In this document: positions 6,707 to 60,780 of the stretch, piece by piece
Layout: the number at the start of each line of letters is the position of its first letter
How positions within the stretch are numbered: position 1 is the stretch's first letter
NCBI GenBank assembly: GCA_949291515.1
Contig: CASEVY010000007.1
Span: 124,001 to 188,000 of the forward strand
Reading direction: 5' to 3'
Source of the DNA: an uncultured bacterium
Lineage (GTDB): Bacteria > Elusimicrobiota > Elusimicrobia > Elusimicrobiales > Elusimicrobiaceae
DNA: 64,000 nt
Position numbers and translations under genes: made by a program
Notes under the pieces: model-generated
The model's database searches: none
Seen by the model: only the letters and a program-made list of their open reading frames with translations
Told to the model about the DNA's origin: nothing

Positions 6707-8776
6707 CTACTTTATCAAAGGTTGTATCAGATTGAGTATCGGCGCTATCGTAAGTGAAACTATTGCTATCAGTTTCATCAATACGTTTAGGCTGGGCCCG
6801 GCGGTGTCTTTGAACGGATCGCCGACAGTATCGCCGATTACGGCGGCTTTATGCTGTTCCGATCCTTTTCCGCCTTCAGTCTTTTCTATATGTTTCTTTG
6901 CATTATCCCACGCGCCGCCGGCATTGGCCATAAACAGCGCCAGCATTACGCCGGTAATAGTAGTGCCTATTACCAGCCCGCAGAGCATATCTTTGCCGAA
7001 AATCAAGCCCGTCAAAGCCGGCGCCAGCACGCCGATAAGGGCGGGCAAAAGCATTTTCTTTATCGCCGATTTTGTGGAGATATCCACGCAGCGCGCGTAA
7101 TTTGGCGTGGCGGTGCCTTGCAGTATCCCGCTGTTTTGCCTAAATTGCCGTCTTACTTCCTGTACCATATCGTTTGCCGCCGAACCTACCGCACGCATTG
7201 CCAAAGCCGAAAACAAAAACGGCAGCATCGCGCCAACGAACAGTCCCGCCATTATATAAGGATTAGCCATATCTACCTGCCCTATATTCGCGGCGACGCG
7301 GTACGCTTCAAACAATGCAAGAGCCGTCAAGGCGGCGGATCCTATGGCAAATCCTTTCCCGATCGCTGCGGTGGTATTGCCTACTGCGTCCAAGCGGTCG
7401 GTTCTTTTGCGGACTTCCGGCTTCATTTTCGCCATTTGAGCTATGCCGCCGGCATTATCGGCTATAGGGCCGTAAGCGTCAACGGCAAGCTGTATGCCGG
7501 TGGTCGAAAGCATACCCAACCCCGCTATGGCTACGCCGTATAATCCGCTGAACTTATATGACAGTATTATCGCCGCCGCTATAAAAACGGCAGGCCACAT
7601 CGTAGATAACATTCCCACACCCAAACCGGATATTATATTGGTCGCCGCGCCGCTTTTTGAACTTTGCGCTATTTCCGCGGTGCAGGCTTTTCCTTCCGCG
7701 GTATAATAATCGGTTATCAGCCCTATAAGCACTCCGCAGGCAAGGCCAGCAACTACCGCGGCGTATACCCCGCCGGCTTTATAATACTCGCCCGAGAAAG
7801 AGAAAACGTCCGGCGAGAAGCGCATTATTATCGGATAAGCCGCCGCGGCAAATAATATCGCCGCCAAGTACATACCCCTGTTTAGCGCGCTTTGCGGGTT
7901 GCCCTTTTCGTGCGTTCTTACTATAAAATTGCCGAAGACGGACGCTATTATGCCGGCCGCGGCCAAAATAAAGGGCAGTACCGCCAGCATTATATTGCCG
8001 CCGGCCGCGGCCGCGCTCGCGCCGATTACCACCGCACTTATTATCGCGCCGCTGTAAGACTCAAACAAATCCGCACCCATTCCCGCCACGTCGCCGACAT
8101 TATCCCCTACATTATCGGCTATTGTTGCCGGGTTCCTGGCATCGTCTTCGGGTATGCCCGCCTCAACTTTGCCGACCAAATCCGCGCCGACGTCCGCCGC
8201 TTTTGTGTATATTCCGCCGCCTACTCTTGCGAAAAGCGCCACCAGGCTCGCCCCGAGCGAAAAACCGGTTATTATCGGCAGAACGGTTAAGGTTAGGCTT
8301 TCCTGGTCCGCGCCAAACAGTTTGACAAACAGCATAAATAATGACGATATCCCCAATAAAGACAGCCCTACCACGCTCAGCCCCATTACCGAACCGCCGT
8401 TAAAAGCCACTTTTAAAGCAGCGTTTAAAGATTTCTGTGCGGCATTGGCCGTTCTCGCATTTGAGAAAGTCGCGACTCTCATTCCTATCACGCCAGCCAG
8501 GCCGGAAAATATCGACCCGCATATAAACGCCGCAGCCACCAAGCGCACTTCCCCTTTGTTGAAAAGCGCGAGCAGCGCCGCGACGGTTATTATTACTGCG
8601 CCCAACACTTTGTATTCCCTTTTCAGGAAAGCCTTCGCGCCGTCTTGTATCGCGTGGCTGATTTGTTTCATCTCGTCGGTGCCCTGCGGTTGTTTGTAAA
8701 CCCATAATCCTTTGAAGTAAGCCGTAGCCAAAGCCAAAATCGCGGCCGCTATGGCAAAAGCAATTAACAGATTCAT
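6707..8776 (-). CDS. hppA: Membrane-bound (K+-dependent type) cation-pumping pyrophosphatase
   Basis: Integral membrane pyrophosphatase, 689 aa with about 16 membrane segments, which couples PPi hydrolysis to H+ or Na+ export. The catalytic signature [11 protein letters not shown] (from Asp195) and the Asp-rich [20 protein letters not shown] motif are intact. [10 protein letters not shown] has Ala where K+-independent enzymes have Lys, so I assign the K+-dependent class; whether it moves Na+ or H+ cannot be read with confidence. GGAGG lies 4 nt before the ATG. PPi-driven ion pumping fits an anaerobic, energy-limited lifestyle. Confidence 0.96.
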
Positions 8777-8824
8777 AATACCTCCGTATTAAATGACCGG
8801 CAAAGTGCTAATATGATAACAAAT

Positions 8825-9961
8825 TTAAAAATCTTTACAAGATTTATATATGTTCTTTATTTTCGAGAAACTTTTCTTAAACGCTTTTACCGCCTGCGGG
8901 TCAAACGCTTTTTCGCTTTGCTCTGTTATAAATTGATATGCCTGAGATATGTCCCAAGGTTTTTTATAGCAGCGCTTCATACATAAAGCGTCGAATACGT
9001 CGGCTACGGCTACTATTCTGGCTTCAAGGGGTATTTCCTCACCTTTCAAGCCTTCGGGATAACCCGTCCCGTCGAAGCGTTCGTGGTGGTATAAGCTCAT
9101 TTTATAGGCTATTTTCAACAGGGAGGACTGCGCCCCGCCAAGTATTTTGCCGCCGTATACGGTGTGGCGTTTCATTATTTCAAATTCTTCGGGGGTAAGT
9201 TTGCCCGGTTTGAGCAGAATATTGTCCGGTATGGCTATCTTGCCTATATCGTGCAAAGCGCTGGCGTGTTTGATTGTTTGGGCTCGGCTTTCTTCCAAAC
9301 CGAGTCCGCGCGCTATCAGATAACTTATTTGTTCTATGTTTTCTATGTGTTGTTTGGTGTCGGATTGGTCGCGGTACTCGGCCGTTACTGCCAGACGGTA
9401 AATGGTTTCCAGGTTGGAGAGTTTTACCTCTTCGTATAGTTTTGCTATCTCTATTTTCCCGGCCGCCAAATTGGCCATTAGTTTCAAAAGGCCTTCATCT
9501 TTTTTTGAAAAAGGCGTTGCGTCTATTTTGTTGCTTACTTGCAGCACCCCTATGGTTACATTTTCTTTGTTTTTCAGGGGTACGGCCAAGAGAGAATTGG
9601 TTTTAAATCCCGTTACCAAATCCACCTCTTTTGAAAATCTTTTGTCCGCATATGCGTCGGGCAGGTTAATGGTGTGGCCGCTGCGGCATACCTGCGCGGC
9701 TATGCTGCTCCCTTTAAGCGGAAGATGTATTTCCGTATATTCCAAGCCTTTGCCGCGTACGGTTTTTGACCAAAGTTCGCCTGCGTCTTCATCTTTGATG
9801 AAAATGAAACATCTTTTCGCTCCCAGTATATTGGTTACTTGTTTTGCTGTTAATTCCAAAAGCGCGTCGAGGTTTGTTTCATGCGAAACCCTCCACCCGA
9901 ACTCCACCAGGAGATCGAGTTTGTTTTTATCGGTGAGGGTTTGATTCTGAGTTTTCGCCAT
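8825..9961 (-). CDS. GAF domain plus HD-GYP phosphodiesterase
   Basis: 378 aa. The N-terminal GAF domain (about residues 20-165) is a small-ligand or redox sensor. The C-terminal HD-GYP domain (about 185-355) carries HDIGK, HTVYGGKIL and HHERFDGTGYP, the metal-binding and GYP motifs of cyclic-di-GMP phosphodiesterases. No receiver or membrane segment is seen, so it is probably a cytoplasmic sensor-effector. Its start lies 35 nt inside the 3' end of the GlcF-like gene, so it is co-translated with an oxidoreductase operon; the link between signalling and oxidation is inferred from that. Confidence 0.92.
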   Translation of the reverse strand: MAKTQNQTLTDKNKLDLLVEFGWRVSHETNLDALLELTAKQVTNILGAKRCFIFIKDEDAGELWSKTVRGKGLEYTEIHLPLKGSSIAAQVCRSGHTINLPDAYADKRFSKEVDLVTGFKTNSLLAVPLKNKENVTIGVLQVSNKIDATPFSKKDEGLLKLMANLAAGKIEIAKLYEEVKLSNLETIYRLAVTAEYRDQSDTKQHIENIEQISYLIARGLGLEESRAQTIKHASALHDIGKIAIPDNILLKPGKLTPEEFEIMKRHTVYGGKILGGAQSSLLKIAYKMSLYHHERFDGTGYPEGLKGEEIPLEARIVAVADVFDALCMKRCYKKPWDISQAYQFITEQSEKAFDPQAVKAFKKSFSKIKNIYKSCKDF

Positions 9962-45811: not shown

Positions 45812-46197
45812 AGATATTCCCTTACAGGTATTGTAATAAATTCCCAACACCAACAAAAGAGTTAAAAGATAGAGCGTTATCTTGAAAAGCTCTCACAAAG
45901 AGAGTGTTGTTTAGGGGAGGAAGATACAAAATTAAATTCTAGGCAGTTAAATGAGGGCAAAAGTATACAAAGATGCCTTTTGCCCTTGCTTTTGAGGTCC
46001 AAATGCACTGTAGGCAGAAGTATCTAGTTGGGGGTGGTTGTCCTAAAACAAAAATTCCCGATTGGAAGCGGATAAATAGAGTAAAAAGGCATTAAAAATC
46101 CCACAAAAAGTTCGATGGGAGTAAATATGGAGTACTGTGGTCAATGCTTTTTATAATTTTCTAATACAAAGGTAGATGAATTAGGAAAAAAGCACTC
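45812..46197. other. Intergenic stretch with one strong inverted repeat
   Basis: No gene seen. AGGGCAAAAG (45954-45963) pairs perfectly with CTTTTGCCCT (45977-45986), loop 13 nt; no T-run follows, so its role is unclear. The rest is AT-rich and without recognisable signals. Confidence 0.35.
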
Positions 46198-47538
46198 TTA
46201 GGGTAAACTCTGTAATATTTTGTGTTCTAATTTTTCTAATTCCTCAGAGTAATATTTATATTTCCCTTTAATTGTAAGATACTGTGTTTTCCAAGGAAAT
46301 TTACCAAATTCTTTATTATCTTTAGCAATATTATAAAGAGGGATTAATAATAATAAGCATTGGACACACGAAGATATCCATAAATTATAGTCTCTGAAAT
46401 ATGTATAAGGAAGAAATGCTTTCCTAGAAATTCGATTAAAGGTTTGTTCAACCTGTTCTAAGATATTAATATCCGGAACACTTTGTGCTATTTTTTCTAA
46501 TTCTATAATATTCGCCATATCTAGTTCAGTTGGCATTCCGGAAATGTTTTGGGTGTGTTCTAATATGTTTTTGGTTTGTAATTCCATCAATTCTTTTTTT
46601 ATTTCATCATCATCTAGCTCGTTAATAAGAAAGGTCCATTGTGATATAGGATAAAGTCGATGGTGCAAATCTTTAAATGTTTTTTGATTTAAAGATTTTT
46701 TAAAAGATGAAGAGGAAAAAACTTTAAGAGCTTGAGAAAATTGTTTATCCTCGCTTAATGTGTGATTTGTTTTTGCCCAAAAATTTTTTTGGAAAAATAG
46801 AATATAGATAATTAAGTTTTCAATAGAATTGTTGGATTTTAATTTTCCATTTAAACTTGCAATATCAAATTTTTTTTCAAAAACAATATTGTTTCTTAAT
46901 ACCGGATAATATTTTAATAATGTGATAATCCTTAATATGGGACTAGCGGAATTTAAGAATTCCTTTGAGGTAAAGGTATCGGTAAAACTTGAATCAAGCA
47001 AAAAATATAAATATATATTTTGCAAATCTCTTCTTTTGGTGTCAGTAAACCATTGTGCAAACGCGATAGGGCAAGATAATCCTAAATAAAGCATGACATA
47101 TCCTAATCCCCATAATCCATTTCTATTTATATGACGAAATGGCCTTGAAGAAATGAAATCAAAAATCTCTATTCCTGAATTGAAATCTATATCAAAATTA
47201 GAGAACGGTTTCAAAATATCTGCTGAGAGGTTTTCTAATTCTTTGATAATTTCTTTATGATATTTTTTTATAATATTACAGAGTGTTTTATCATCTTTTT
47301 TTATTTTGGATATATAAGCAAGATTTGCTAATAACCCACATAGGAATAAGAAGATATTTGGAATTTTCTTTGTATTTTTGTTCAGGTACTCAGAAAAGAA
47401 ATTATATCCTTGCGCGGTGATTTTTAAATCATTGTTTTTGTGAGTAAAATATCCATCTTTAATAAACGGGGCAATATCATAAACCCCTTTATTAGAGAAT
47501 GTAATTAAGTCTTGGAATCCGAATTCTTTTTCTAACAT
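46198..47538 (-). CDS. Unrecognised helical protein, second gene of a two-gene cassette
   Basis: 446 aa, Asn/Lys/Ile-rich and almost all helical. Residues ~15-55 (GVYDIAPFIKDGYFTHKNND, then LKITAQGYNFF) read like a winged-helix domain. The central part (FLFLCGLLANLAYIS and a later LGYVMLYLGLSCPIAFA) has hydrophobic stretches that may be buried helices rather than membrane spans. The stop of the upstream gene overlaps its ATG (TAATG), so both are made together. No family recognised. Base composition is clearly more AT-rich than the core genes to the left, a sign of transfer. Confidence 0.75.
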   Translation of the reverse strand: MLEKEFGFQDLITFSNKGVYDIAPFIKDGYFTHKNNDLKITAQGYNFFSEYLNKNTKKIPNIFLFLCGLLANLAYISKIKKDDKTLCNIIKKYHKEIIKELENLSADILKPFSNFDIDFNSGIEIFDFISSRPFRHINRNGLWGLGYVMLYLGLSCPIAFAQWFTDTKRRDLQNIYLYFLLDSSFTDTFTSKEFLNSASPILRIITLLKYYPVLRNNIVFEKKFDIASLNGKLKSNNSIENLIIYILFFQKNFWAKTNHTLSEDKQFSQALKVFSSSSFKKSLNQKTFKDLHHRLYPISQWTFLINELDDDEIKKELMELQTKNILEHTQNISGMPTELDMANIIELEKIAQSVPDINILEQVEQTFNRISRKAFLPYTYFRDYNLWISSCVQCLLLLIPLYNIAKDNKEFGKFPWKTQYLTIKGKYKYYSEELEKLEHKILQSLP

Positions 47539-49067
47539 TAAAATATCCTATTTTTCTCATTACATAATGAAAGTAGCGAGTTAATATACGCTTCCGCTTC
47601 TAATTTGGTCTTACCATTGAGAGGAAGTATACAAAAATCATAATCTTTTAGAAGGTTGTTTATGCTATTAGAAAGCATATAAATATTATTTCCTTGATTC
47701 GTTTTGACTACAACAAATCTATCATGAAATTTTGCTGTAGGCAAATTGTACCATTGGGAAAACGATATCGCTAAAGGCAATGCTTTTAATTGGTTCAATG
47801 CATTTTTTGTATCTTTTATAATCTTATCAATGTTGGTCTTTTCCCTAGGATTATCTGGATTTTCTGCTCTCCAGCACGAAATAATTTGTATTCGCAGGTG
47901 TGTGTCTGTTAATCTCGCCAGCAGGCTAAGACTTTCTTGAGAAATAAAAGGATCAATTATGATTAATATGGTTGCGCTGGACCTCTGAGTGATTTTATTA
48001 AAATATTCAACAAGATTATAGATTTCTGTTAATTTTGTAATCTTATTATGTTTGTGAAACCAACATCCATTTTCTAGTACCTGTTTAGCTAATGAAGATT
48101 TCTTTACAAGTTCTTGTTTCCAGAAATTAGCATTCTGTTCTTCTTTGGGTAAAAGACTAGGAGTTCTCCAAGAAGACCTGTTAGTAGGAACCATACTCTC
48201 TAGGCGTTTATCTTTAGTTGCCATTTTATCTTTTATGGATATGGAATCGGATAATACAATAATATTTCCTGAAACAGCGGGAATAAATCCCACCCTTTCG
48301 TGATGCAGAAGAGAATTCTCCTCGTCAAAAATCCAATATTCTTGTTCAGCTATATTAGAAAGAATATGAGTAATAGGAAGTGTATATTCTGTTACTCCTA
48401 TGTCTATATTTAATAATGTATCTAAAAGGATTTCCTTACGGTTTGAATAAAGAACTAAGTGGACTTTCCAATTTTTGTTGTTTTCTTTGCGATAAAAAAA
48501 GACTTCTTTTTGTTTCACAATAAGCTTAAACGGGAGAATCTCTTCAGCCCATTCCTTTGTTTCTGCCCACTCGAAGCATCCCAATCTTTCGACATAAATA
48601 TCACTAAATTTTTGTCTATCATTATCCAGGGTTTTGCAAAGATTCATAAATTCATTTGTAGATAGTTCTCTAAAATAGGAATTTTGCATAAATTGGTCGC
48701 TGTAATAAATATCAATATCAGTTACAGAGTCAATAGGTGAAGGGGGCGTCTGGTATAGCATATGATTGGCAAACTGAATAACTTTATTATGGTAATAAAA
48801 AACAGTTTTTAAAGGCAGGTTTTTATTGATTTTTAAAAAATCTATGATATTATTAGAAAAAATTTCTGATATATTAATATTTTGAATTGAAGTATATAAC
48901 TGTACTTTCCACCCACTAGGTAATTCCCCTAAACATTTAGGTTTAGACATTATATGGCTATGGCTGGTTGGGAGAGAAAGACCATAGAGAAACATATAGG
49001 AACTTTCTTTTTTTAACACATATATCCAAAATATCCTATTCGTCATTTGTTTTATTGGTTTATTCAT
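47538..49067 (-). CDS. Large protein with C-terminal PLD-like (HDRF) domain, first gene of a two-gene cassette
   Basis: 509 aa. The N-terminal ~340 residues are mixed alpha/beta and unassigned. From about residue 365 the pattern ATILIIIDPFISQESLSLLA, a Rossmann-like strand RIQIISCWRA, then KFHDRFVVV (His448, Asp449) and IYMLSNSINNL matches single-motif phospholipase-D-like nucleases, where an HDR box replaces HKD. Such domains occur in anti-phage proteins. I recall a family named VPA1262 with related layout but cannot confirm a match. AT-rich; the promoter probably lies in 49068-49200. Confidence 0.75.
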   Translation of the reverse strand: MNKPIKQMTNRIFWIYVLKKESSYMFLYGLSLPTSHSHIMSKPKCLGELPSGWKVQLYTSIQNINISEIFSNNIIDFLKINKNLPLKTVFYYHNKVIQFANHMLYQTPPSPIDSVTDIDIYYSDQFMQNSYFRELSTNEFMNLCKTLDNDRQKFSDIYVERLGCFEWAETKEWAEEILPFKLIVKQKEVFFYRKENNKNWKVHLVLYSNRKEILLDTLLNIDIGVTEYTLPITHILSNIAEQEYWIFDEENSLLHHERVGFIPAVSGNIIVLSDSISIKDKMATKDKRLESMVPTNRSSWRTPSLLPKEEQNANFWKQELVKKSSLAKQVLENGCWFHKHNKITKLTEIYNLVEYFNKITQRSSATILIIIDPFISQESLSLLARLTDTHLRIQIISCWRAENPDNPREKTNIDKIIKDTKNALNQLKALPLAISFSQWYNLPTAKFHDRFVVVKTNQGNNIYMLSNSINNLLKDYDFCILPLNGKTKLEAEAYINSLLSLCNEKNRIF

Positions 49068-49260
49068 ATAATCAAATAGTATATTGAATGCTACATTCTA
49101 ATATATTTGTATTATTATTTGTTATTCTACTAATTTTGTTTAGGACAAAAAACACAATTTTCGGGCTAAAATGGTATATTATTTATAGGAAATAATTGTA
49201 TTTTCTATTATATATCTTATTTATAAGTTATTTATTTTTGAAGGAGTATTTGTCTGGCTT

Positions 49261-49500
49261 TTTAAGCCGTTTTGACGGCTTAAACACAATTTGAGTCTGT
49301 TTTTGGAACCGCATGAGGAATGCGGTGCGCTTTTGGGATACCAAAGGCTCAATCGTAGTCCAAAAACAGCCGAGTTTAGACACAGAGTAAGCGGCCTAAT
49401 TACCCGTTTGCCCTGGGTCGAATGTTTCCTGCCCTTCGGGGCGGGAAACTGCGGCTGTTTATATTTGGGTTACTACGATTGGCTCGGATATAACAGCCGC
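49261..49500 (+). ncRNA. Candidate structured RNA with pseudoknots (orientation probably +)
   Basis: 240 nt with at least seven complementary segments: TTTAAGCCG/CGGCTTAAA (49261-49284); an 11-bp helix 49297-49307/49359-49369 enclosing hairpins ACCGCAT/ATGCGGT (49308-49326) and CTTTTGG/CCAAAGG (49330-49347); a 10-bp hairpin 49425-49448 closed by a C(UUCG)G tetraloop; GCGGCTGTT/AACAGCCGC (49451-49459/49492-49500); and two long-range helices CAATCGTAG/CTACGATTG (49350-49358/49473-49481) and CCGAG/CTCGG (49370-49374/49483-49487), which would be pseudoknots. CGGCTGTT can also pair with AACAGCCG at 49365-49372, giving a switch-like alternative. A strong Shine-Dalgarno follows at 49551. Not a tRNA, tmRNA or RNase P RNA by motif. 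Confidence 0.6.
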
Positions 49501-49609
49501 CATTTTTTATATCCTTTCCCGTTTCCTTGGTTCCGCTTATTGCATTAACCGGGGAGGCGCAGAGCAATGTTATACGGCGGCTGAGCTAACAGCGGATTTA
49601 GACAAGCGT

Positions 49610-49852
49610 TTGGAGCAGGGAAACCCGGATATAAAACCTGTTTCGGTCTCTGAAGAAGAACTTAAAGCTCCTTCCGCTACTGCCCAAGAACAGACCTTTA
49701 GGAATTATATGGATACCACCTATCAGCAAGGCGCGCCTATTCCCGGAGCAGAGGATAATCAGCCCCAAGAAACCTCAGAACCCCCCAAAGAGTCAAAGAG
49801 TTTCTTAAAAAAACTGAGCGATTTCTTATCCTCTCTATTGTTCTTTTTATAA
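49610..49852 (+). CDS. Small acidic protein with hydrophobic C-terminus; true start unclear
   Basis: At least 80 aa, acidic and Pro/Gln/Glu-rich, ending in a basic patch and hydrophobic tail (KSFLKKLSDFLSSLLFFL). The frame stays open upstream (AELTADLDKRLEQGNPD looks coding) but contains no ATG or GTG; TTG at 49610 is the first possible start and has no Shine-Dalgarno. A strong GGGGAGG (49551-49557) precedes ATG 49567, which opens only five codons (MLYGG, stop) in a neighbouring frame. Deleting one base in the GGCGGC run (49576-49581) would join that start to this gene. A terminator follows at once. No family recognised. Confidence 0.5.
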   Translation: MEQGNPDIKPVSVSEEELKAPSATAQEQTFRNYMDTTYQQGAPIPGAEDNQPQETSEPPKESKSFLKKLSDFLSSLLFFL

Positions 49853-49855
49853 TGC

Positions 49856-49883
49856 AAAGGCCGGCCTCAAAGTCGGCCTTTTA
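49856..49883 (+). terminator. Intrinsic terminator after the small acidic protein
   Basis: AAAGGCCG (49856-49863) / CGGCCTTT (49874-49881), followed by T. Confidence 0.75.
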
Positions 49884-49889
49884 CTTTGT

Positions 49890-49895
49890 TAGAAT
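49890..49895 (+). promoter_or_regulatory. -10 box TAGAAT for the 49.9-kb gene
   Basis: TAGAAT with ATG 49926 about 30 nt downstream, behind an AAAGGATGA Shine-Dalgarno. Here a normal short leader is expected, unlike the leaderless genes. Confidence 0.4.
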
Positions 49896-49925
49896 GAGGG
49901 ATATAACTAACAAAGGATGATAATT

Positions 49926-50465
49926 ATGGAAATTAAATTTGCGTTGTGGCAATACAAAAAAGATGAGTTGGGCGAGTTAAAGCCCACTAATCCCATTGTG
50001 GTAAGCACGTGGGAAGAGGTGCGGGCAAAAGCGAAAGAAGGATATAGATTGCAGGGGCTGACATATCCCGTTTTCCAAATGTTTAAAGCATTGGAATATA
50101 ACGAGTATTTCCTAAAGGAACGGGAGCGATTTAGAAAAGAGTTTCAAATTCCGGCGCGGGTTAGTTTTAAAAAATATTTAGAGAATTCACGCTATTTTGC
50201 CAAAGATAAGAAAATAACAAAAAAGAACTTTATCACTAGTCCCTTTTTTAAGGAGATTTGTTTCTTGGGGAAAGTTGTGCAAGCATATCGGATACCAAAC
50301 CATATAAAGGAACTGCTGAGAGATTTATTTTATACGGGGGTTGTGCGTTTTATTCCGCCGTTTGGCGGGGATGTGCGTATTGCAATTTATCCTAAACAGC
50401 GTTGGTTGCATCCTAAAGAAGTTCGTTTGGAGATAACCTCTCCCCATATGACAAAAATGCTTTAA
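49926..50465 (+). CDS. Unknown accessory protein, N-terminal part (probable frameshift)
   Basis: 179 aa beginning MEIKFALWQYKKDELGELK, mixed alpha/beta, no recognised family. After EITSP the frame runs out at a stop within seven codons, while the +1 frame continues smoothly as YDKNALKKFIDLHWEM into the next ORF. Adding one C to the TCTCCCCAT tract at ~50440-50450 would give one protein of ~278 aa. Probably a mobile-element gene, since it precedes the recombinase. Confidence 0.6.
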   Translation: MEIKFALWQYKKDELGELKPTNPIVVSTWEEVRAKAKEGYRLQGLTYPVFQMFKALEYNEYFLKERERFRKEFQIPARVSFKKYLENSRYFAKDKKITKKNFITSPFFKEICFLGKVVQAYRIPNHIKELLRDLFYTGVVRFIPPFGGDVRIAIYPKQRWLHPKEVRLEITSPHMTKML

Positions 50466-50479
50466 AAAAGTTTATTGAT

Positions 50480-50761
50480 TTGCATTGGGAAATGTTGCAA
50501 CCCTATATTTTGGCATTGCCAGCGGAGAATAATCTGTTAATTACCGAGCATGACTTGGAAGTTATGCGCTTGCGAAAAGAAAATAAAACGATTTCAAATG
50601 TAGCTACTGAAATGTATTTAGCTATGAATCCCGGTGATGTGCGTTACGGGAAAGAAAAAGAAGTCAAGGAAGCGACAGTTAAAACGGCTTATTTTAGAGC
50701 CAAAGAAAAAATAGATGAGTTCTTTCGTCCCGTCGGTCAAAAGAAGAAAAAGATGCGCTGA
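50480..50761 (+). CDS. Unknown accessory protein, C-terminal part (probable frameshift)
   Basis: 93 aa from the first TTG, but the frame is open further upstream and looks coding (DKNALKKFID). No Shine-Dalgarno. The helical stretch ITEHDLEVMRLRKENKTISN, then VATEMYLAMNP and VKTAYFRAKEKIDEFF, resembles a helix-turn-helix DNA-binding segment. It most likely is the end of the preceding protein, separated by a one-base frameshift. Confidence 0.55.
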   Translation: MHWEMLQPYILALPAENNLLITEHDLEVMRLRKENKTISNVATEMYLAMNPGDVRYGKEKEVKEATVKTAYFRAKEKIDEFFRPVGQKKKKMR

Positions 50762-50775
50762 TGAACTTAATTTTA

Positions 50776-50809
50776 TCGTCTCCGGGGTTTATGTAATCTT
50801 AGGAGACGA
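50776..50809 (+). repeat. Inverted repeat before the recombinase unit
   Basis: TCGTCTCC (50776-50783) / GGAGACGA (50802-50809), 8 bp perfect with an 18-nt loop. It could be a weak terminator or an operator for the following genes. Confidence 0.4.
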
Positions 50810-50841
50810 AGTAGTCTCTTTCTTTATTCTATCCTTTGTCT

Positions 50842-51045
50842 ATGAAGCACTTGGACAAAGGATTTTTTATTACAGCGCAAGATGTCCCGGCCGACTTTAT
50901 TAAGGAAACACAGAAGTTGGTTGCGGACAGCAGCGGGCGCAAAATAACCGCCGCGCAAGCGTTGCAAATAATTCAATCTTGGCTGGAATTTGCGGATATA
51001 TTAGTTCGCTTAAACCAGCTGTCCGGCGCGTCAAATAAACCATAA
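50842..51045 (+). CDS. Small protein encoded just upstream of the serine recombinase
   Basis: 67 aa (MKHLDKGFFITAQDVPADFI...). Mostly helical, with KITAAQALQIIQSWLEFADILVRLNQ forming an amphipathic helix. It ends 13 bp before the recombinase ATG, so the two are co-transcribed. Its size and position fit an accessory factor such as a directionality factor, but there is no motif to prove it. A TTG six bases upstream is an alternative start. Confidence 0.55.
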   Translation: MKHLDKGFFITAQDVPADFIKETQKLVADSSGRKITAAQALQIIQSWLEFADILVRLNQLSGASNKP

Positions 51046-51058
51046 AGGAGTAAAGGAA

Positions 51059-52633
51059 ATGAATAAGACGGTGATTTATTTAAGAGTCTCTAGTAAAGGA
51101 CAGGAGGAAAACGGCTATTCTCTGGACGCACAGGAAAAGTTGGCCCGGGAATATGCCGCCAAGAAAGGATTAGCGGTGGTCAAAATATGGAAAGGGGCGG
51201 AATCAGCTTGGGGAAAGATTGAAAGAACCAATTTTTCTGAAATGCTGGCTTTTATGAAAAAGCATCACGAGGTTAGGCATATTATTTTTGATGTGCTAGA
51301 CCGTATGACCCGCAACGATGTGGATAAACTTAAAATTGCTCAATTAGTAAAGCAATATGACAAAGTGGTTCATTTTTCCCGCGATAATAAGATGTACAGC
51401 CGGGAGTCCAGCTCCGACGAGGAATTTATGATGGATGTGCAGGTAGCCGTTGCCAAAAAAATATCCAATGACATTTCCCGCAAGACCACAATGGGTATGA
51501 CGGAAAAGGCCGAACAAGGTATTTATCCGGCCCGCGCGCCGATTGGCTACCTAAACAACCACCGCACAAGCAAAATCGATATTGACCCGGAACGAGCTCC
51601 TTTTGTAAAGCGTTTATTTGAAATGGCGGCCAGCGGGGAATATTCTTTGCAAATGATAGAGGATATCCTGTATGCGGAGGGGTTAAGGGAGCGTTTGCAT
51701 AATGGAAGAGTGCGTAAAAGTACCCTGTATCGGGTGCTTCATAACCCGATGTATTATGGCACTTTCCGTTGGGGCAAGAAACTTTATCCGGGCATTCACG
51801 AACCGCTCATCACAAAAGACTTATTTGAGAGGGTCAATAAGGCCCTCTCCCTTTTTGAGCGTCCCCGTGTTACTACCCGCAATTATCCTTTTTCTAATCT
51901 GCTTCATTGCAAAGATTGCGGCTGTTCTATTGTGGGGGATTTCGCCAAAAAGAAATATATGTATTACCGCTGTTCATTTTCCAAAGGGCAACATCCGCAC
52001 GAAAAATACATTCGGGAACATCAGCTTGACGAGGCGTTTGCGGCCTTGATAGATGCTATTAGCTTAAAGCCGGGAGTAGTGGCGTGGCTACAAAAAGCCA
52101 TAGAAATACGCTTAAAACACTTGGAAAAGGCCCAAAACAAGGCGACGGGCGGGCTTAAAGCGGAACTAAGCAAAAAGCAAACGGAATTAGAACGGTTATA
52201 TGACGAGGGCTGGGAAAAGGGCTATCCTGCGGAGTTTATAAAACGCACGGAAGAACGCTTAAAAACGGCTATTGCCGAGCTTACACAGCAAATACAAGCC
52301 CAAACTATACAACCGGAAGCCGTACGGCAAAAAAGCACAGATATTTTAAAGTTGGTATGTAATATGGGTACTATCTATCGTGCGGCTCCGCTTTCAGAAA
52401 AAAAGCCGTTTTTGCGTCATATAGCCAGCGATTTTGTATTGGACGGACACAAAATTTACCCAAAATACCGCGAACCGTTCAATATTTTTGCGGAAGGAAA
52501 TAAAAAATGCTTAGAAATTAAGGGGAAATCCCCTAAAAGTTCTAAGCATTTAATATGGGGTTCGCTTTTAGAATACTTTTACAACTTTTTCTCCACCAAT
52601 GTCATTTATTGGCATATTTTGCTTTCCCGATGA
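51059..52633 (+). CDS. Large serine recombinase
   Basis: 524 aa. The resolvase catalytic domain begins VIYLRVSSKGQEENGYSLDAQ (nucleophile Ser11 or Ser12); DRMTRNDVDK and the arginines of the active site follow. The recombinase domain has APIGYLNNHRTSKIDIDPER and STLYRVLHNPMYYG, and a zinc ribbon (CKDCGCSIVG...YYRCSF) and coiled coil (about 355-425) complete it. It integrates or excises an element at att sites by double-strand exchange. The final ~40 residues (after FNIFAEG) are atypical and overlap a strong inverted repeat, so the natural end may have changed on integration. GGAGTAAAGG lies before the ATG. Confidence 0.93.
   Translation: MNKTVIYLRVSSKGQEENGYSLDAQEKLAREYAAKKGLAVVKIWKGAESAWGKIERTNFSEMLAFMKKHHEVRHIIFDVLDRMTRNDVDKLKIAQLVKQYDKVVHFSRDNKMYSRESSSDEEFMMDVQVAVAKKISNDISRKTTMGMTEKAEQGIYPARAPIGYLNNHRTSKIDIDPERAPFVKRLFEMAASGEYSLQMIEDILYAEGLRERLHNGRVRKSTLYRVLHNPMYYGTFRWGKKLYPGIHEPLITKDLFERVNKALSLFERPRVTTRNYPFSNLLHCKDCGCSIVGDFAKKKYMYYRCSFSKGQHPHEKYIREHQLDEAFAALIDAISLKPGVVAWLQKAIEIRLKHLEKAQNKATGGLKAELSKKQTELERLYDEGWEKGYPAEFIKRTEERLKTAIAELTQQIQAQTIQPEAVRQKSTDILKLVCNMGTIYRAAPLSEKKPFLRHIASDFVLDGHKIYPKYREPFNIFAEGNKKCLEIKGKSPKSSKHLIWGSLLEYFYNFFSTNVIYWHILLSR
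52505..52551 (+). repeat. Long imperfect palindrome within the 3' end of the recombinase gene
   Basis: AAATGCTTAGAA (52505-52516) pairs perfectly with TTCTAAGCATTT (52540-52551), and AGGGG (52521-52525) with CCCCT (52530-52534), with a small internal loop. It is unusual in coding sequence; an att/recombinase-binding site or an RNA hairpin is possible. Confidence 0.6.
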
Positions 52634-53152: not shown

Positions 53153-54247
53153 ATGCTTCCCTATAAACCCCAAAATTTACCCATTTCGGACTTAGACTGG
53201 AAACCGCTTATAACCTTAGTAGGTCGTGCCAATGCGGTTCTGTCTCAATATACTGGCTTATTAAAGGGAATTGTTAATCCGCATGTACTGCTATCTCCTT
53301 TGACTACACAGGAAGCAACCTTATCCTCTAATATAGAAGGTACACAAGCTACCGTATCAGAAGTGTTAGAAAGTGAAGCCGGTAAAGTGTATGACGAAGA
53401 AAAACAACGGGATATCCGGGAAGTTATCAACTACCGTAAGGCTATGTTAGAAGCCGAAAAAATGCTAAAAGAACGGCCTTTTATCCACTTAAATATGATT
53501 AGAGCCCTCCATGAGATTTTATTATCTGGTGTGCGCGGGCAAGATAAGGCCAGAGGACAATTTCGTGTAGACCAAAACTGGATAGGCCCTTTGGGGTGTT
53601 CCTTAGAAAATGCTTCGTATGTGCCGCCAACTCCTATGGATATGCATCAGGCATTAAATAATTGGGAAGCGTACTTAAATGATGAAGATATAGACATCCT
53701 CATTCAATTAGCCTTTGTGCACGCCCAGTTTGAGATTATCCACCCGTTTAAAGATGGCAACGGGCGTATTGGACGTATTTTGATACCATTGTTTCTTTTT
53801 ACAAAAAATTACCTGCCTTTACCTGTTTTTTACCTCAGCGAATACTTGGAAAACCATAGGTCGGAATACTACAGCCGCCTCAATGCTATTACTAAACAAA
53901 ATGACTGGCAAGGATGGGTAGAATTCTTTTTAACTGCTATTATTAAACAAGCAGAAGCGAATAATATAAAAGCTGAGTCCATTATACAGCTGTATGATAA
54001 AATGAAAAAAGATATTCCTTCTTGTATTCACTCTCAGTATGCTACATCTGTAGTTGATACACTCTTTACAAGACCTATTTTCAACTCTACTCAGTTTATG
54101 TTTGAGGCCAAGATCGAGAGTAAGGGAACTGCTAATAAACTGCTTACCAAGTTGATGCAGGCAGGCATTATCAATCTAACCCGTGCAGCTGCGGGCCGGA
54201 CTTCTGCTATATATACCTTTACAGATCTAATAAAAATAGTCATGTAA
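53153..54247 (+). CDS. Fic family protein (AMPylase-type) with C-terminal winged helix
   Basis: 364 aa. The catalytic Fic loop is HPFKDGNGRIGR (about residues 195-206), complete for AMP transfer. An inhibitory SxxxEG motif (SSNIEGT, about residue 60) lies before the core, placing it in the class with N-terminal auto-inhibition. The last ~80 residues (TRPIFNSTQFMFEAKIESKG, then TANKLLTKLMQAGIINLTRA) look like a winged helix that may bind the four motifs in its own promoter. AGGAG lies 9 nt before the ATG. The target protein is unknown; many such Fics act as stress or toxin-like regulators. Confidence 0.92.
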   Translation: MLPYKPQNLPISDLDWKPLITLVGRANAVLSQYTGLLKGIVNPHVLLSPLTTQEATLSSNIEGTQATVSEVLESEAGKVYDEEKQRDIREVINYRKAMLEAEKMLKERPFIHLNMIRALHEILLSGVRGQDKARGQFRVDQNWIGPLGCSLENASYVPPTPMDMHQALNNWEAYLNDEDIDILIQLAFVHAQFEIIHPFKDGNGRIGRILIPLFLFTKNYLPLPVFYLSEYLENHRSEYYSRLNAITKQNDWQGWVEFFLTAIIKQAEANNIKAESIIQLYDKMKKDIPSCIHSQYATSVVDTLFTRPIFNSTQFMFEAKIESKGTANKLLTKLMQAGIINLTRAAAGRTSAIYTFTDLIKIVM

Positions 54248-57509: not shown

Positions 57510-60053
57510 TTATCCCCGGCATATATTCTGGAGTATGGACTGGTAGCTATCTTTAGTAACCATAGCAAATAAACATTTTCCATGGCTCTTTTCAGCCCAT
57601 AATTTACCTATATTTTCTTTCTCCTGAGCGTCTTGGGCTGAGATCAGGTGTTCCCCTTTATATTCCACTGCTAATAATCGGCCATCATTTAATAAAACAA
57701 TAAAGTCCGGATAGAACCGATCCGTAGAAGTGGGTAAAGAGAAAGAGTAAGCCGATTTTTCTATGTTCCGAACCCAATACTTAACTTCTGGCATAGAGTC
57801 TATTACTTGGGCACATTCAGCCTCTTCGTTATTCATTTGTCCAACAAAACTATAAAAATGCTTATTAAAACGTTTAGATCCCTCATATTTGGAGTTCAAA
57901 GGATAGTTAGGACCAAAGGTAAAAGAATAATCCATTTTAGTTTCTACTGTGCCTAAATGGAATAATTGGTCTTGATATCCTTTGGCATAGGCCTGTTTCC
58001 GGTAAGAGTCGATTTTCTGATCAATTGCCTTAGCCAATAAAAATTTAGTCCGCACCAAAGAATTGATATTGATTTTACGGGTAATAGTTAAGAAATCAAC
58101 CACACGGCGTAAAAATTCCAATAATACTGGTTGAGGCACATCTATTTGGGGAATTTCCCGGTCCAGCCAGCGGGATAATTCTAAATTGGTCCAAGCTGAC
58201 TCTGCCTCTTCCACATTATGTAAAAATAAGCGGCTTGCTACGCGTTCTGTAACTCGTTTTCCGTCTATATCAATTTCAAAAATTTTCCCATTTTGGGCAA
58301 TAGAGAAATCTGCCGCTGTAAGCTCAGCAGGAAAATCCAACAATTTCCACCCATTAGGCAAGTAAAATTCTTTATCTTGGATTACGTTCCAGGAGTCATC
58401 TGTAAATAAACACAATTGTGGAACAGAGAATTTCTCCCCTCTTTCAGCAAAAGAAGGCTCTTTTGGGGTAATTATATTGCAAGTGTTAAAAAAAGCAATA
58501 GCTTCTTGTTCGGGAAGCAATCTTGCAAACTTATCTCTCAGAGTCGGTTGAATATCTGTTTTTACCTGTACTGTTACCCGCCCATCTGGAAGTTGTTGCA
58601 AGGCTAATTCTTGTTTTTCTTCTGCGGTTAAGGTAGAAGTGTCTACTGGGCTGGTTGTAAAAGAATATGTCAAACCCAATTTACTGGGTTCTGGCTTTAA
58701 ATACTCTTTGCTTTCTTGTTCATCAAAACCCATTTCTACCAAACTATCTTTCAGTTTGGCTACGGCATTAGTCCAACACGCACTGGATACATAAGCATAT
58801 GCTTTATTCAAATCAGCTTGGGAACGTCGTTTTGCATAAGGCATGCGCAAAATGCGGCCTAAAAACTGCTCTACCGCAGTTAAGGACCTAGTTTGAGCCA
58901 CTGAGCAGAAAATATATGCAAACGGGCAGTCCCATCCTTCTCGCAAGGCCTGCTTTGTAATAATAAAGTCTATGGGGCAATTGGGATCTAATACATTAAT
59001 TCCATCTAATTCTTTTTGTTCTCCTGTGGCAATTGCAATACGATCTGCTGAAATATGTTCATTATCAATCAAATATTGTTTGATAATATCTTCAGTGATT
59101 TCTTGTCCTTTGCTTTCGGCCTGGATTAATACAATAGGGCGGATATATTCTTTTTCCAATTTAGCATCTTGCGCTAATTTATTTCTCATTAGGCAGGCTT
59201 CTGTTAAACTTTGTTGCCAAGTTTGTGTTTCCGTCAGCATAATGGGTAGTTTTATCATTTCTTCGGCTTTTAATTCCACCGCACTCACCCGGTATAATAC
59301 ATTGCTCTCTCCTTCTTTAGGAGTGGCTGTAAACTCTACAATACAGGCAGGGTTTAAACGCTTCATAATTTCCCTGTTTAACTCTGTTACGGCCTTGTGT
59401 GCTTCGTCTACAATCACAATAGGCTGGTGCATGTGCAATAAATTAGCAAAGGAATTTTTCACCCGGCCAGCATCCGGCTTTCCACCCTCTACCTTTTCTA
59501 AACACTCTAGATAAATTGCGGGAATAACCTTAAAATGAGGTTCCAAACTTTCATTATCCGCATATATATTGCGGATGTCTGTATCTTTTACATTAAAAGA
59601 TTGCACGGTAGAAACAAACACACAGGTTTTGTTGGCAATATCAGTTGGACGAAGGTTTGCAAAATCATCAATATCAAAAATAGCCACATTCCCTTTAAAA
59701 GCGGCGTCTAATACTTCCCTATTGGGATGGGTCGGGTTCTTTAAGGTTTCTATGGTTTGTTGTTTAATTGCCGATGTAGGGGTTAACCACAATACCATTG
59801 GATAATCCTTATCCACATAGTGTTGTGCGGCTAATTTGACAGTATGGGTAGCCAAAAAGGTCTTTCCTCCGCCGGTTGGCAAACGCAAGCAAACATAAGG
59901 GATGTCTTCCAGACCGGGAATGGCATGGTAGGGTACCCGGTCATTGCCTAATATTTTATAAAAAGCCTCTTTGGGCCCCATAATGCGGGCTTCTTCTAAG
60001 TAATTAGCCAAAACTTCTAAAGTATTATTTTGATAATTTTTCAGTTGAAACAT
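57510..60053 (-). CDS. Type III restriction endonuclease subunit Res
   Basis: 847-aa SF2 helicase-nuclease that cuts DNA with the Mod subunit. Walker A PTGGGKTFLATH is near residue 60, the DEAH box IVIVDEAHKA near 215, SF2 motif III EFTATPKEG, and motif VI QFLGRILRMPYAKR near 425. The C-terminal nuclease has a PD-(D/E)XK pattern, YPDFIVLLNDGRLLAVEYKG. The start at 60053 is favoured by AGGAG ten nt upstream; the longer ATG 60071 contains that Shine-Dalgarno. It overlaps the membrane-protein gene by 29 nt. Confidence 0.93.
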   Translation of the reverse strand: MFQLKNYQNNTLEVLANYLEEARIMGPKEAFYKILGNDRVPYHAIPGLEDIPYVCLRLPTGGGKTFLATHTVKLAAQHYVDKDYPMVLWLTPTSAIKQQTIETLKNPTHPNREVLDAAFKGNVAIFDIDDFANLRPTDIANKTCVFVSTVQSFNVKDTDIRNIYADNESLEPHFKVIPAIYLECLEKVEGGKPDAGRVKNSFANLLHMHQPIVIVDEAHKAVTELNREIMKRLNPACIVEFTATPKEGESNVLYRVSAVELKAEEMIKLPIMLTETQTWQQSLTEACLMRNKLAQDAKLEKEYIRPIVLIQAESKGQEITEDIIKQYLIDNEHISADRIAIATGEQKELDGINVLDPNCPIDFIITKQALREGWDCPFAYIFCSVAQTRSLTAVEQFLGRILRMPYAKRRSQADLNKAYAYVSSACWTNAVAKLKDSLVEMGFDEQESKEYLKPEPSKLGLTYSFTTSPVDTSTLTAEEKQELALQQLPDGRVTVQVKTDIQPTLRDKFARLLPEQEAIAFFNTCNIITPKEPSFAERGEKFSVPQLCLFTDDSWNVIQDKEFYLPNGWKLLDFPAELTAADFSIAQNGKIFEIDIDGKRVTERVASRLFLHNVEEAESAWTNLELSRWLDREIPQIDVPQPVLLEFLRRVVDFLTITRKININSLVRTKFLLAKAIDQKIDSYRKQAYAKGYQDQLFHLGTVETKMDYSFTFGPNYPLNSKYEGSKRFNKHFYSFVGQMNNEEAECAQVIDSMPEVKYWVRNIEKSAYSFSLPTSTDRFYPDFIVLLNDGRLLAVEYKGEHLISAQDAQEKENIGKLWAEKSHGKCLFAMVTKDSYQSILQNICRG

Positions 60054-60780
60054 GGGACTTTGGCTCCTCATTTTTTTGTTTTGGGTGATATTTTTCTAAA
60101 AAGAGTTTAAAAGGATCTAAATTAGCGGCTTCCTCTTGTAAATTCAGAGAATATATCTTGTCTAAATATGAAATAATACAGCATAAAATACGCCCTTGAT
60201 TAATGATAATAGAATCTAATAGAGGCATAAGCTGTTCTTTTGTTTTTTCATATGATGTCATAGACTCTGCCGTTTGGTAGTGGGGGTGGGTGGAAAAAAG
60301 TTTATTTAAATCTTCACATTTCGCTAAAAATAATGATATTTGCTTTTGGGTAAGAAAAACAAAAGAGACAATACCATCTTTTAAGTTCTGCGTGTTTTGT
60401 AATGCAAAAAAAGGTGCAATTCTAATTAGGGTCTGAAAGTTTTGTTCTTTAAATTTAGGTAATAATAAAGGTGCCGGGAATGTCTGTTTGCTTAAATGTT
60501 CATATATAATGCTGATTTCAGACAGATTATTAAGTGCAATAGCATATTCTAACATGAGTGCATCTCTTAACTTCTCTTTTTCTTTGCGCCTATTCTCATC
60601 TTTGGTCAGTTTCCAAACTAACCATACGGGCAAAGAAGCCCCTATAGTTGCCGTGGTAATTGTTACCCACATATCCCAATATATTCCATTCATCTTTGCT
60701 GCACAGCATAAGTTAATTGCATACAATACCACTAATACAAGTATTGCAATATTGGGCAACCATATTTTTAAACCAGCCAT
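60025..60780 (-). CDS. Membrane-anchored helical protein between mod and res
   Basis: 251 aa. Two N-terminal membrane helices (about 8-28 and 36-58) are followed by a basic segment (KDENRRKEKEKLRD) and a long cytoplasmic helical domain (about 75-235) with no enzymatic motif. GAGG precedes the ATG; it starts 5 bp after mod and overlaps res by 29 nt, so it is fully embedded in the restriction operon. Type III systems normally have mod and res adjacent. It might be a cargo effector or anchoring factor; no family recognised. Confidence 0.75.
   Translation of the reverse strand: MAGLKIWLPNIAILVLVVLYAINLCCAAKMNGIYWDMWVTITTATIGASLPVWLVWKLTKDENRRKEKEKLRDALMLEYAIALNNLSEISIIYEHLSKQTFPAPLLLPKFKEQNFQTLIRIAPFFALQNTQNLKDGIVSFVFLTQKQISLFLAKCEDLNKLFSTHPHYQTAESMTSYEKTKEQLMPLLDSIIINQGRILCCIISYLDKIYSLNLQEEAANLDPFKLFLEKYHPKQKNEEPKSHVSTEKLSK

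Follow-up and report, generated by a model that had tools for sequence, protein, structure and literature searches.

Introduction

T-box leaders (RF00230) are multi-copy RNAs with mutually exclusive terminators and antiterminators before many genes. Classical attenuators, which are controlled by a leader peptide or a protein (e.g., trp), have one strand shared by the antiterminator and the terminator and take the decision during transcription. EAR and other processive antitermination RNAs (LoaP/NusG-type) are leader RNAs that bring about antitermination at surface-type genes. RNAs of the GEMM or cyclic di-GMP-I class (RF01051) are found in many copies per genome before genes for pilins, secreted proteins and surface proteins, often with a terminator. 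Termite-gut DNA, from a habitat of Elusimicrobiota, was the first source of the structured RNA candidates Termite-flg (RF01729) and Termite-leu (RF01730) (listed in PMC2864571). Here we characterize a structured leader RNA in a stretch of 64,000 nucleotides (hereafter the window, meaning the whole stretch analyzed) from an uncultured member of the Elusimicrobiaceae (assembly GCA_949291515.1, contig CASEVY010000007.1, positions 124,001 to 188,000). The RNA represents a previously uncatalogued family of no known class and, on the basis of sequence comparison and predicted folds, is most probably a cis-acting transcription attenuator that would operate by strand exchange among helix P1, an antiterminator and a terminator.

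Structure and covariation of the RNA

The structured unit proper extends from the 5' hairpin P0 to a U-tract (49263-49508, plus strand) and was matched by covariance model R1 with 246.8 bits (G000:C7:173263-173508) and by the broader model R2 with 216.1 bits. It lies within the wider region, 49261-49570, that an original prediction made from the DNA alone had proposed as a pseudoknotted structured RNA. The fold of 49240-49570 had a minimum free energy (MFE) of -141.9 kcal/mol compared to -97.3 +/- 4.9 kcal/mol for shuffled sequences (z = -9.15), and none of 100 shuffles equaled it. This value and the conservation of the helices with covariation in relatives bear out the earlier claim of far more structure than ordinary intergenic DNA.

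Alignment A1, which contains 30 distinct copies, was built without reference to structure. Overall, 88.5% of its cells were paired, with double changes at 41 pairs, and no shuffle was as high. Between 86.7 and 98.7% of cells were paired in P1-P6 and 82.1% in P0, and double changes occurred in P0, P2, P3, P4, P5, and P6. Judged from these aligned copies, helices P0-P5 and the terminator hairpin are under selection. Along the plus strand the order is P0, P1 around P2 and P3, P4, P5, the long P6 and then six U. P0 (TTAAGCCGT/ACGGCTTAA; 49262-49283) was part of the MFE fold and had double changes in six of six pairs. The 11-bp P1 (49297-49307 with 49359-49369; 98.7% of cells paired) encloses two hairpins, P2 (49308-49314/49320-49326; 90.9%) and P3 (49329-49336/49341-49348; 97.1%), as had been described from the sequence. 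P4 (49379-49419) covaries and is optional; distant members are without it, as are the shorter family members of about 200 nt. P5 (49424-49449; 97% of cells paired, double changes in 7 of 10 pairs) has in the window copy the C(UUCG)G loop that had also been noted. P6 (49451-49500, loop 49472-49481; 94.7% of cells paired) is a predicted intrinsic-terminator hairpin and is followed by the U-tract, T6 (49503-49508). An AATTTRA element directly 5' of P1 (49286-49293) was strongly conserved at the same place in relatives; a candidate conserved pairing of this element with the 3' strand of the terminator was checked and showed zero compensatory change, and no pairing partner for it was found.

The linker and the 3' strand of P1 (linker CAATCGTAGT, CCAAA and AACAGCCG; 49350-49372, plus strand) can form about 22 bp with the 5' strand and loop of P6 (49452-49481). 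The resulting helix, the putative antiterminator, is mutually exclusive with both P1 and P6; as a whole it was paired in 97.9% of the cells of A1, and the truncated window transcript had it in its MFE structure. Between P3 and the 3' strand of P1, the linker of 9 nt paired with the P6 loop in 98.1% of cells among the 30 sequences, with nine of nine pairs changed on both sides, and the pairing ran on in register, two small bulges aside, into CCAAA/TTTGG and AACAGYCG/CGGCTGTT. Sliding the partner by 1-3 columns lowered the pairing of the alternative helix to 28-50%. Both predicted partners of 49452-49459, namely 49365-49372 and 49492-49499, are present. A long-range crossing pairing, 49350-49359/49472-49481, is real as well, but it forms one continuous helix with the 49452-49459 alternative and is better regarded as a second, alternative conformation than as a pairing that coexists with the other helices, which makes the term pseudoknotted doubtful. 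A permanent pseudoknot, with P1 and P6 both formed, the loop bound to the linker and the RNA serving as a scaffold rather than a switch, would fit the linker-loop covariation equally well if that covariation is taken alone. Such a scaffold is improbable: these nine pairs take up nearly all of the 7-10-nt loop and lie in line with CCAAA/TTTGG and AACAGYCG/CGGCTGTT, so that a single helix is formed only if P1 and P6 open, and truncated transcripts favored the extended helix in nearly all copies in predicted folds.

The complementarity was kept in two distant members (L200 and L201), in which P1 is GATTATTTGTTGG/CC..CAGATAATCGC and the terminator begins with GGCGGCGATTACC; the distant P1 and terminator sequences differ, but they have changed together (GATTATTTGTTGG/CCAACAGATAATCGC with GGCGGCGATTACC). 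Conservation across the family was highest in the partner-exchanging strands, and there were few conserved unpaired bases. The loops of P2-P5 varied in length and sequence, and no conserved unpaired ligand pocket was seen in the family.

Folding predictions for the switch

A detectable terminator hairpin was present in 101 of 104 copies, with a mean energy of about -21 kcal/mol (89 copies). When copies were truncated after the P6 loop, an antiterminator of at least 10 bp was part of the MFE structure in 98 of 101, and the terminator was part of that of the complete RNA in 74 of 101. Folding by transcript length (103 copies) gave P1 first (98%), the antiterminator next (97%) and the terminator last (72%), and the window copy followed the same order. 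With terminator and non-terminator structures imposed on the full-length RNA, the terminator state was favored in 86 of the 89 copies, the margin being about 10 kcal/mol. A copy's own partner strand ranked best among the strands of all copies in 62 of 89 cases and in 32 of 39 within genome G014, a comparison that rests on ranks and not on mean duplex energies, and all 39 G014 copies carry different loop sequences. At the family level, the RNA has the attributes of an attenuator, namely a G+C-rich hairpin with a U-tract, a mutually exclusive antiterminator and a gene directly downstream.

Homologs and searches for known classes

Copies were detected by blastn in 64 of 150 related genomes, several in each and mostly with 70-80% identity over about 235 nt. 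When 84,980 named genomes were scanned for the pattern, 32 contigs were obtained, most of them from animal-gut bins of Elusimicrobia, Elusimicrobiales, or Elusimicrobiaceae and the few others matching genomes of that same family; all named homologs fall in Elusimicrobia. Among 341 Elusimicrobiota genomes, R1 matched 99 and R2 matched 104, the E-values of both models being rough. The matching genomes belong to the family of the window and to a second, distant family (f21), which we take to be Endomicrobiaceae, with single weak matches elsewhere. R1 detected about 20 copies in G042 and 58 matches in G014. The latter number includes some antisense shadows of genuine copies; 42 separate copies from G014 were retrieved and inspected. 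The window's own genome contains four copies (246.8, 106.8, 66.4, and 34.8 bits). Of the three outside the window, one precedes a glycosyltransferase gene, one precedes a gene for a 646-amino-acid protein, and the third is weak, with a distant start.

Rfam 15 gave no matches in the whole window at the gathering cut-off, and at E <= 5 the region 49000-49950 gave only chance-level matches (best E >= 0.12). Searches of the relatives' copies returned nothing but one tRNA outside the RNA, and no tRNA or tmRNA was found in the window. The T-box (RF00230), cyclic di-GMP (RF01051), Termite-flg, and Termite-leu (RF01729 and RF01730) models matched neither the window nor the relatives. Similarity searches of phage and plasmid records and exact-pattern scans of viral contigs gave nothing for the RNA, and no report of such an RNA was found in the open-licence literature on structured RNA, riboswitches and pilins of Elusimicrobia and Endomicrobia.

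The original prediction had named a coding signal or a lack of homologs as evidence against it; no open frame was kept and homologs were abundant. A protein-coding origin was rejected: only 4-5 of 30 rows were open in any frame, and the spacings between anchors took all classes modulo 3. P1-P3 of some copies can be read as FLEPxEExGALL in one frame. A conserved leader peptide with regulatory codons was likewise rejected, as none was conserved and only a start-stop pair was present (16 of 44 copies, from two genomes).

Downstream genes and regulatory signals

A same-strand ATG with a Shine-Dalgarno sequence was located within 260 nt 3' of the RNA in 82 of 104 copies, compared to 18 of 104 on the divergent side. 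The start codon was within 60 nt of the U-tract in 51 of 100 copies, a distance hardly sufficient, if at all, for another promoter. On the 5' side, a TATAAT-like -10 element lay 27-55 nt before P0 in 55 of 77 family f1 copies (17.7% of background windows). Its own promoter-like element and terminator, multiple copies and stable hairpins would suit an independent trans-acting small RNA of about 250 nt, a promoter-to-terminator unit next to which the downstream gene is incidental. We regard this as quite improbable given the strong co-orientation with a gene whose start is often 25-60 nt from the U-tract, the dozens of different copies per genome, each before a different gene, and the conservation, which is highest in the partner-exchanging strands.

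The most common type of downstream protein had the type IV pilin N-terminal motif (32 of 91). Others were TPR proteins (about 10 of 91), glycosyltransferases, DNA methylases (including EcoRI-type), nucleases, HSDR_N proteins, outer-membrane proteins, and zinc-ribbon proteins. Pilins accounted for 22 of 41 downstream genes in G014 and for roughly 8% of its genes (108 pilin-motif matches, with the gene number taken as 1,300; binomial P about 1e-13). Genome G018, presumably that of E. minutum (strain Pei191), contained 80 pilin-motif matches and a single divergent copy of the RNA (31.5 bits), indicating that the RNA is not required for pilins; this copy, at 1543509-1543707, precedes a zinc-ribbon gene whose family recurs behind other copies.

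The architecture, the copy number and the regulon of pilin, surface, and secreted proteins resemble those of cyclic di-GMP riboswitches, and GGDEF proteins were present in 11 of 11 genomes tested. The main idea of the original prediction, a leader that resembles a riboswitch, has alternative pairing and belongs to no known class, is backed by the homologs, the covariation and the genomic context. A true riboswitch, in which P1-P2-P3 (with P4/P5) would bind a small molecule such as a second messenger and so set the choice of helix, nevertheless seems unlikely, although it deserves consideration. No Rfam riboswitch matched, few unpaired bases are conserved, P4 is optional, the P2-P5 loops are variable, and the number of GGDEF proteins showed no relation to the RNA copy number (two in G014 and two in E. 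minutum). The GGDEF survey decides neither for nor against cyclic di-GMP as the ligand.

A Shine-Dalgarno-like motif was located at -32 to -3 of P0 in 55 of 77 f1 copies (background 12% per 36 nt); the AAGGAG at the 5' end of the window copy (49241-49246, plus strand) is without a start codon. A Shine-Dalgarno sequence followed by ATG and TAA or TAG exactly at the start of P0 was present in 16 of 44 copies from G014 and G010 (background 0.4%) and in the distant-family copies L200 and L201. An ATG-TAA or ATG-TAG after a Shine-Dalgarno sequence at the base of P0 was observed in many copies among L131-L167, L186, and L200-L201. The start-stop pair may serve as a ribosome-loading input. If so, ribosome loading or stalling at a minimal AUG-UAA/UAG open reading frame overlapping P0 would feed the switch, and the frequency of the pair and the retention of the Shine-Dalgarno motif in f1 would be consistent with such translation-coupled attenuation. 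The start codon was present in none of the 33 other f1 copies, the window's included, and we consider this coupling rather doubtful for the family.

The window copy and its mobile module

The window copy belongs to a conserved module of RNA, downstream genes and a large serine recombinase (49139-52561, plus strand), delimited by blastn against L031, L032, and L033 and by recombinase domains. The module is 93-97% identical across two genera, indicating recent horizontal transfer. In the three other genomes that share the module, the RNA is followed by a 269-amino-acid HSDR_N_2-domain protein (Pfam) and then by a 151-amino-acid secreted protein. A deletion junction at 49538-49539 marks the loss from the window of about 970 bp, including the RNA's downstream gene (the 269-amino-acid HSDR_N_2 protein); the segment is present at the same place in G001, G046, and G071. 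The deletion causes the window RNA to run into the middle of the secreted-protein gene, which is 5'-truncated and has lost its start (49539-49852, plus strand; the 151-amino-acid frame is intact in L003/L031). The GGGGAGG at 49551 and ATG at 49567, which had been read as a gene start, are codons within this truncated gene (..CINRGGAEQCYTAAE..), and the ATG opens a frame of only five codons. Intact relatives have at that place AAAGGAG and the ATG of a different gene. L031 has an undamaged 281-amino-acid frame (8676-9521) that the window carries as two separate frames (49917-50761, plus strand), which indicates that the element is decaying. The window copy has lost its target gene and probably represents the relic of a mobile element in decay.

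The location of the window copy in a serine-recombinase module with 93-97% identity across genera agrees with the earlier suggestion of a mobile-element RNA, i.e., a component of the recombinase element akin to a transposon, retron or guide RNA. The suggestion holds for the location only, and as an account of the RNA it is highly improbable: most other examined copies are without a recombinase and precede ordinary genes such as those for pilins, and no reverse transcriptase or guide-nuclease gene was present 3' of the copies examined.

A two-gene cassette (446 and 509 amino acids; 46198-49067, minus strand) matched nothing in Pfam or PADLOC at the cut-offs applied. The same slot, 5' of the RNA/recombinase module, holds a Gabija pair, GajA/GajB (PADLOC), in G001 (L031 4106-6785), and the cassette is a candidate anti-phage defense system in an exchangeable cargo site. 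On the far side of the variable cargo, about 240 bp (45928-46169) are 78-82% conserved with L031-L033 and are possibly the element boundary or a second regulatory sequence. To the right of the element are a Fic-type protein (PADLOC SoFic; 53153-54247, plus strand) and a type III restriction enzyme subunit (57510-60071, minus strand), which suggest a defense island.

Discussion

Sequence comparison and folding show the family with its helices and terminator, the pairings that exclude each other and the downstream gene on the same strand. From them we infer that termination does take place and is regulated, with an input that would act by stabilizing or opening P1. As we picture the attenuator, transcription would begin at a promoter just 5' of the RNA and the three-way junction P1-P2-P3 would be the first to fold. 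The emerging 5' strand and loop of the terminator would then bind the linker and P1's 3' strand, forming the antiterminator of about 22 bp and opening P1. Once the 3' strand of the terminator is out, either the antiterminator would be displaced, P1 would re-form and transcription would terminate at the U-tract, or RNA polymerase would pass and the adjoining downstream gene would be expressed. As input we would guess at a trans-acting protein, or at a ribosome on the 5' Shine-Dalgarno sequence or start-stop pair, rather than at a metabolite; a small-molecule aptamer is less likely because the conserved bases lie in the exchanging strands, P4 is optional and no pocket is apparent.

Three points weigh against attenuation by strand exchange. 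About a quarter of the full-length copies do not have the terminator in their MFE structure. P1 and P6 share strand sequence by necessity, and the antiterminator and terminator could be a by-product of two similar helices, an idea disfavored by the unique and covarying linker-loop pairing. Finally, fixed partial termination rather than regulation could explain the family as it appears in alignments and folding models.

A more speculative proposal, which we hold only tentatively, is that the family is an attenuator class without a conventional aptamer that forms a genome-wide switchboard, in which dozens of copies with private antiterminators would set the expression of accessory genes for surface, pilus, and DNA-modification functions in Elusimicrobiota of the gut and the input would be a ribosome at the start-stop pair or a trans factor. 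If the attenuator reading is right, one leader design at dozens of loci in genomes of 1.4-1.8 Mb would be a major regulatory layer in a little-studied gut phylum. With a defined regulon (pilins, TPR proteins, glycosyltransferases, methyltransferases, and nucleases) and a switch amenable to testing, a search for the input can begin. The family is also an example of how so large a group of RNAs can escape Rfam in an under-cultured phylum.

Comparison with known systems

The Termite-flg and Termite-leu candidates share a host habitat with the phylum, and the family RNA had no Rfam match to them. Like EAR and related RNAs, the family consists of leader RNAs with predicted antitermination before surface-type genes; unlike them, it has its own terminator and competing helix, and it had no Rfam match. 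The resemblance to GEMM RNAs lies in the many copies before pilin, secreted, and surface genes, but the family RNA is much larger, its helices are different, and it is without the conserved tetraloop/receptor or ligand pocket. With T-box leaders the family shares its multi-copy nature and a mutually exclusive terminator and antiterminator before many genes. However, its short TGGAACCGC resemblance to the T-box is the end of P1 plus P2 and not an antiterminator bulge, it showed no recognizable candidate stem for a specifier loop that pairs with a tRNA anticodon, and its targets are pilin, surface, and DNA-modification genes in contrast to the aminoacyl-tRNA synthetase and amino-acid genes of T-box leaders. 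As in classical attenuators, a strand is shared by the antiterminator and terminator and the decision would be made during transcription. The family differs from these in having no regulatory-codon leader peptide, at most an AUG-stop pair in some copies, and in reusing one RNA design before dozens of unrelated genes.
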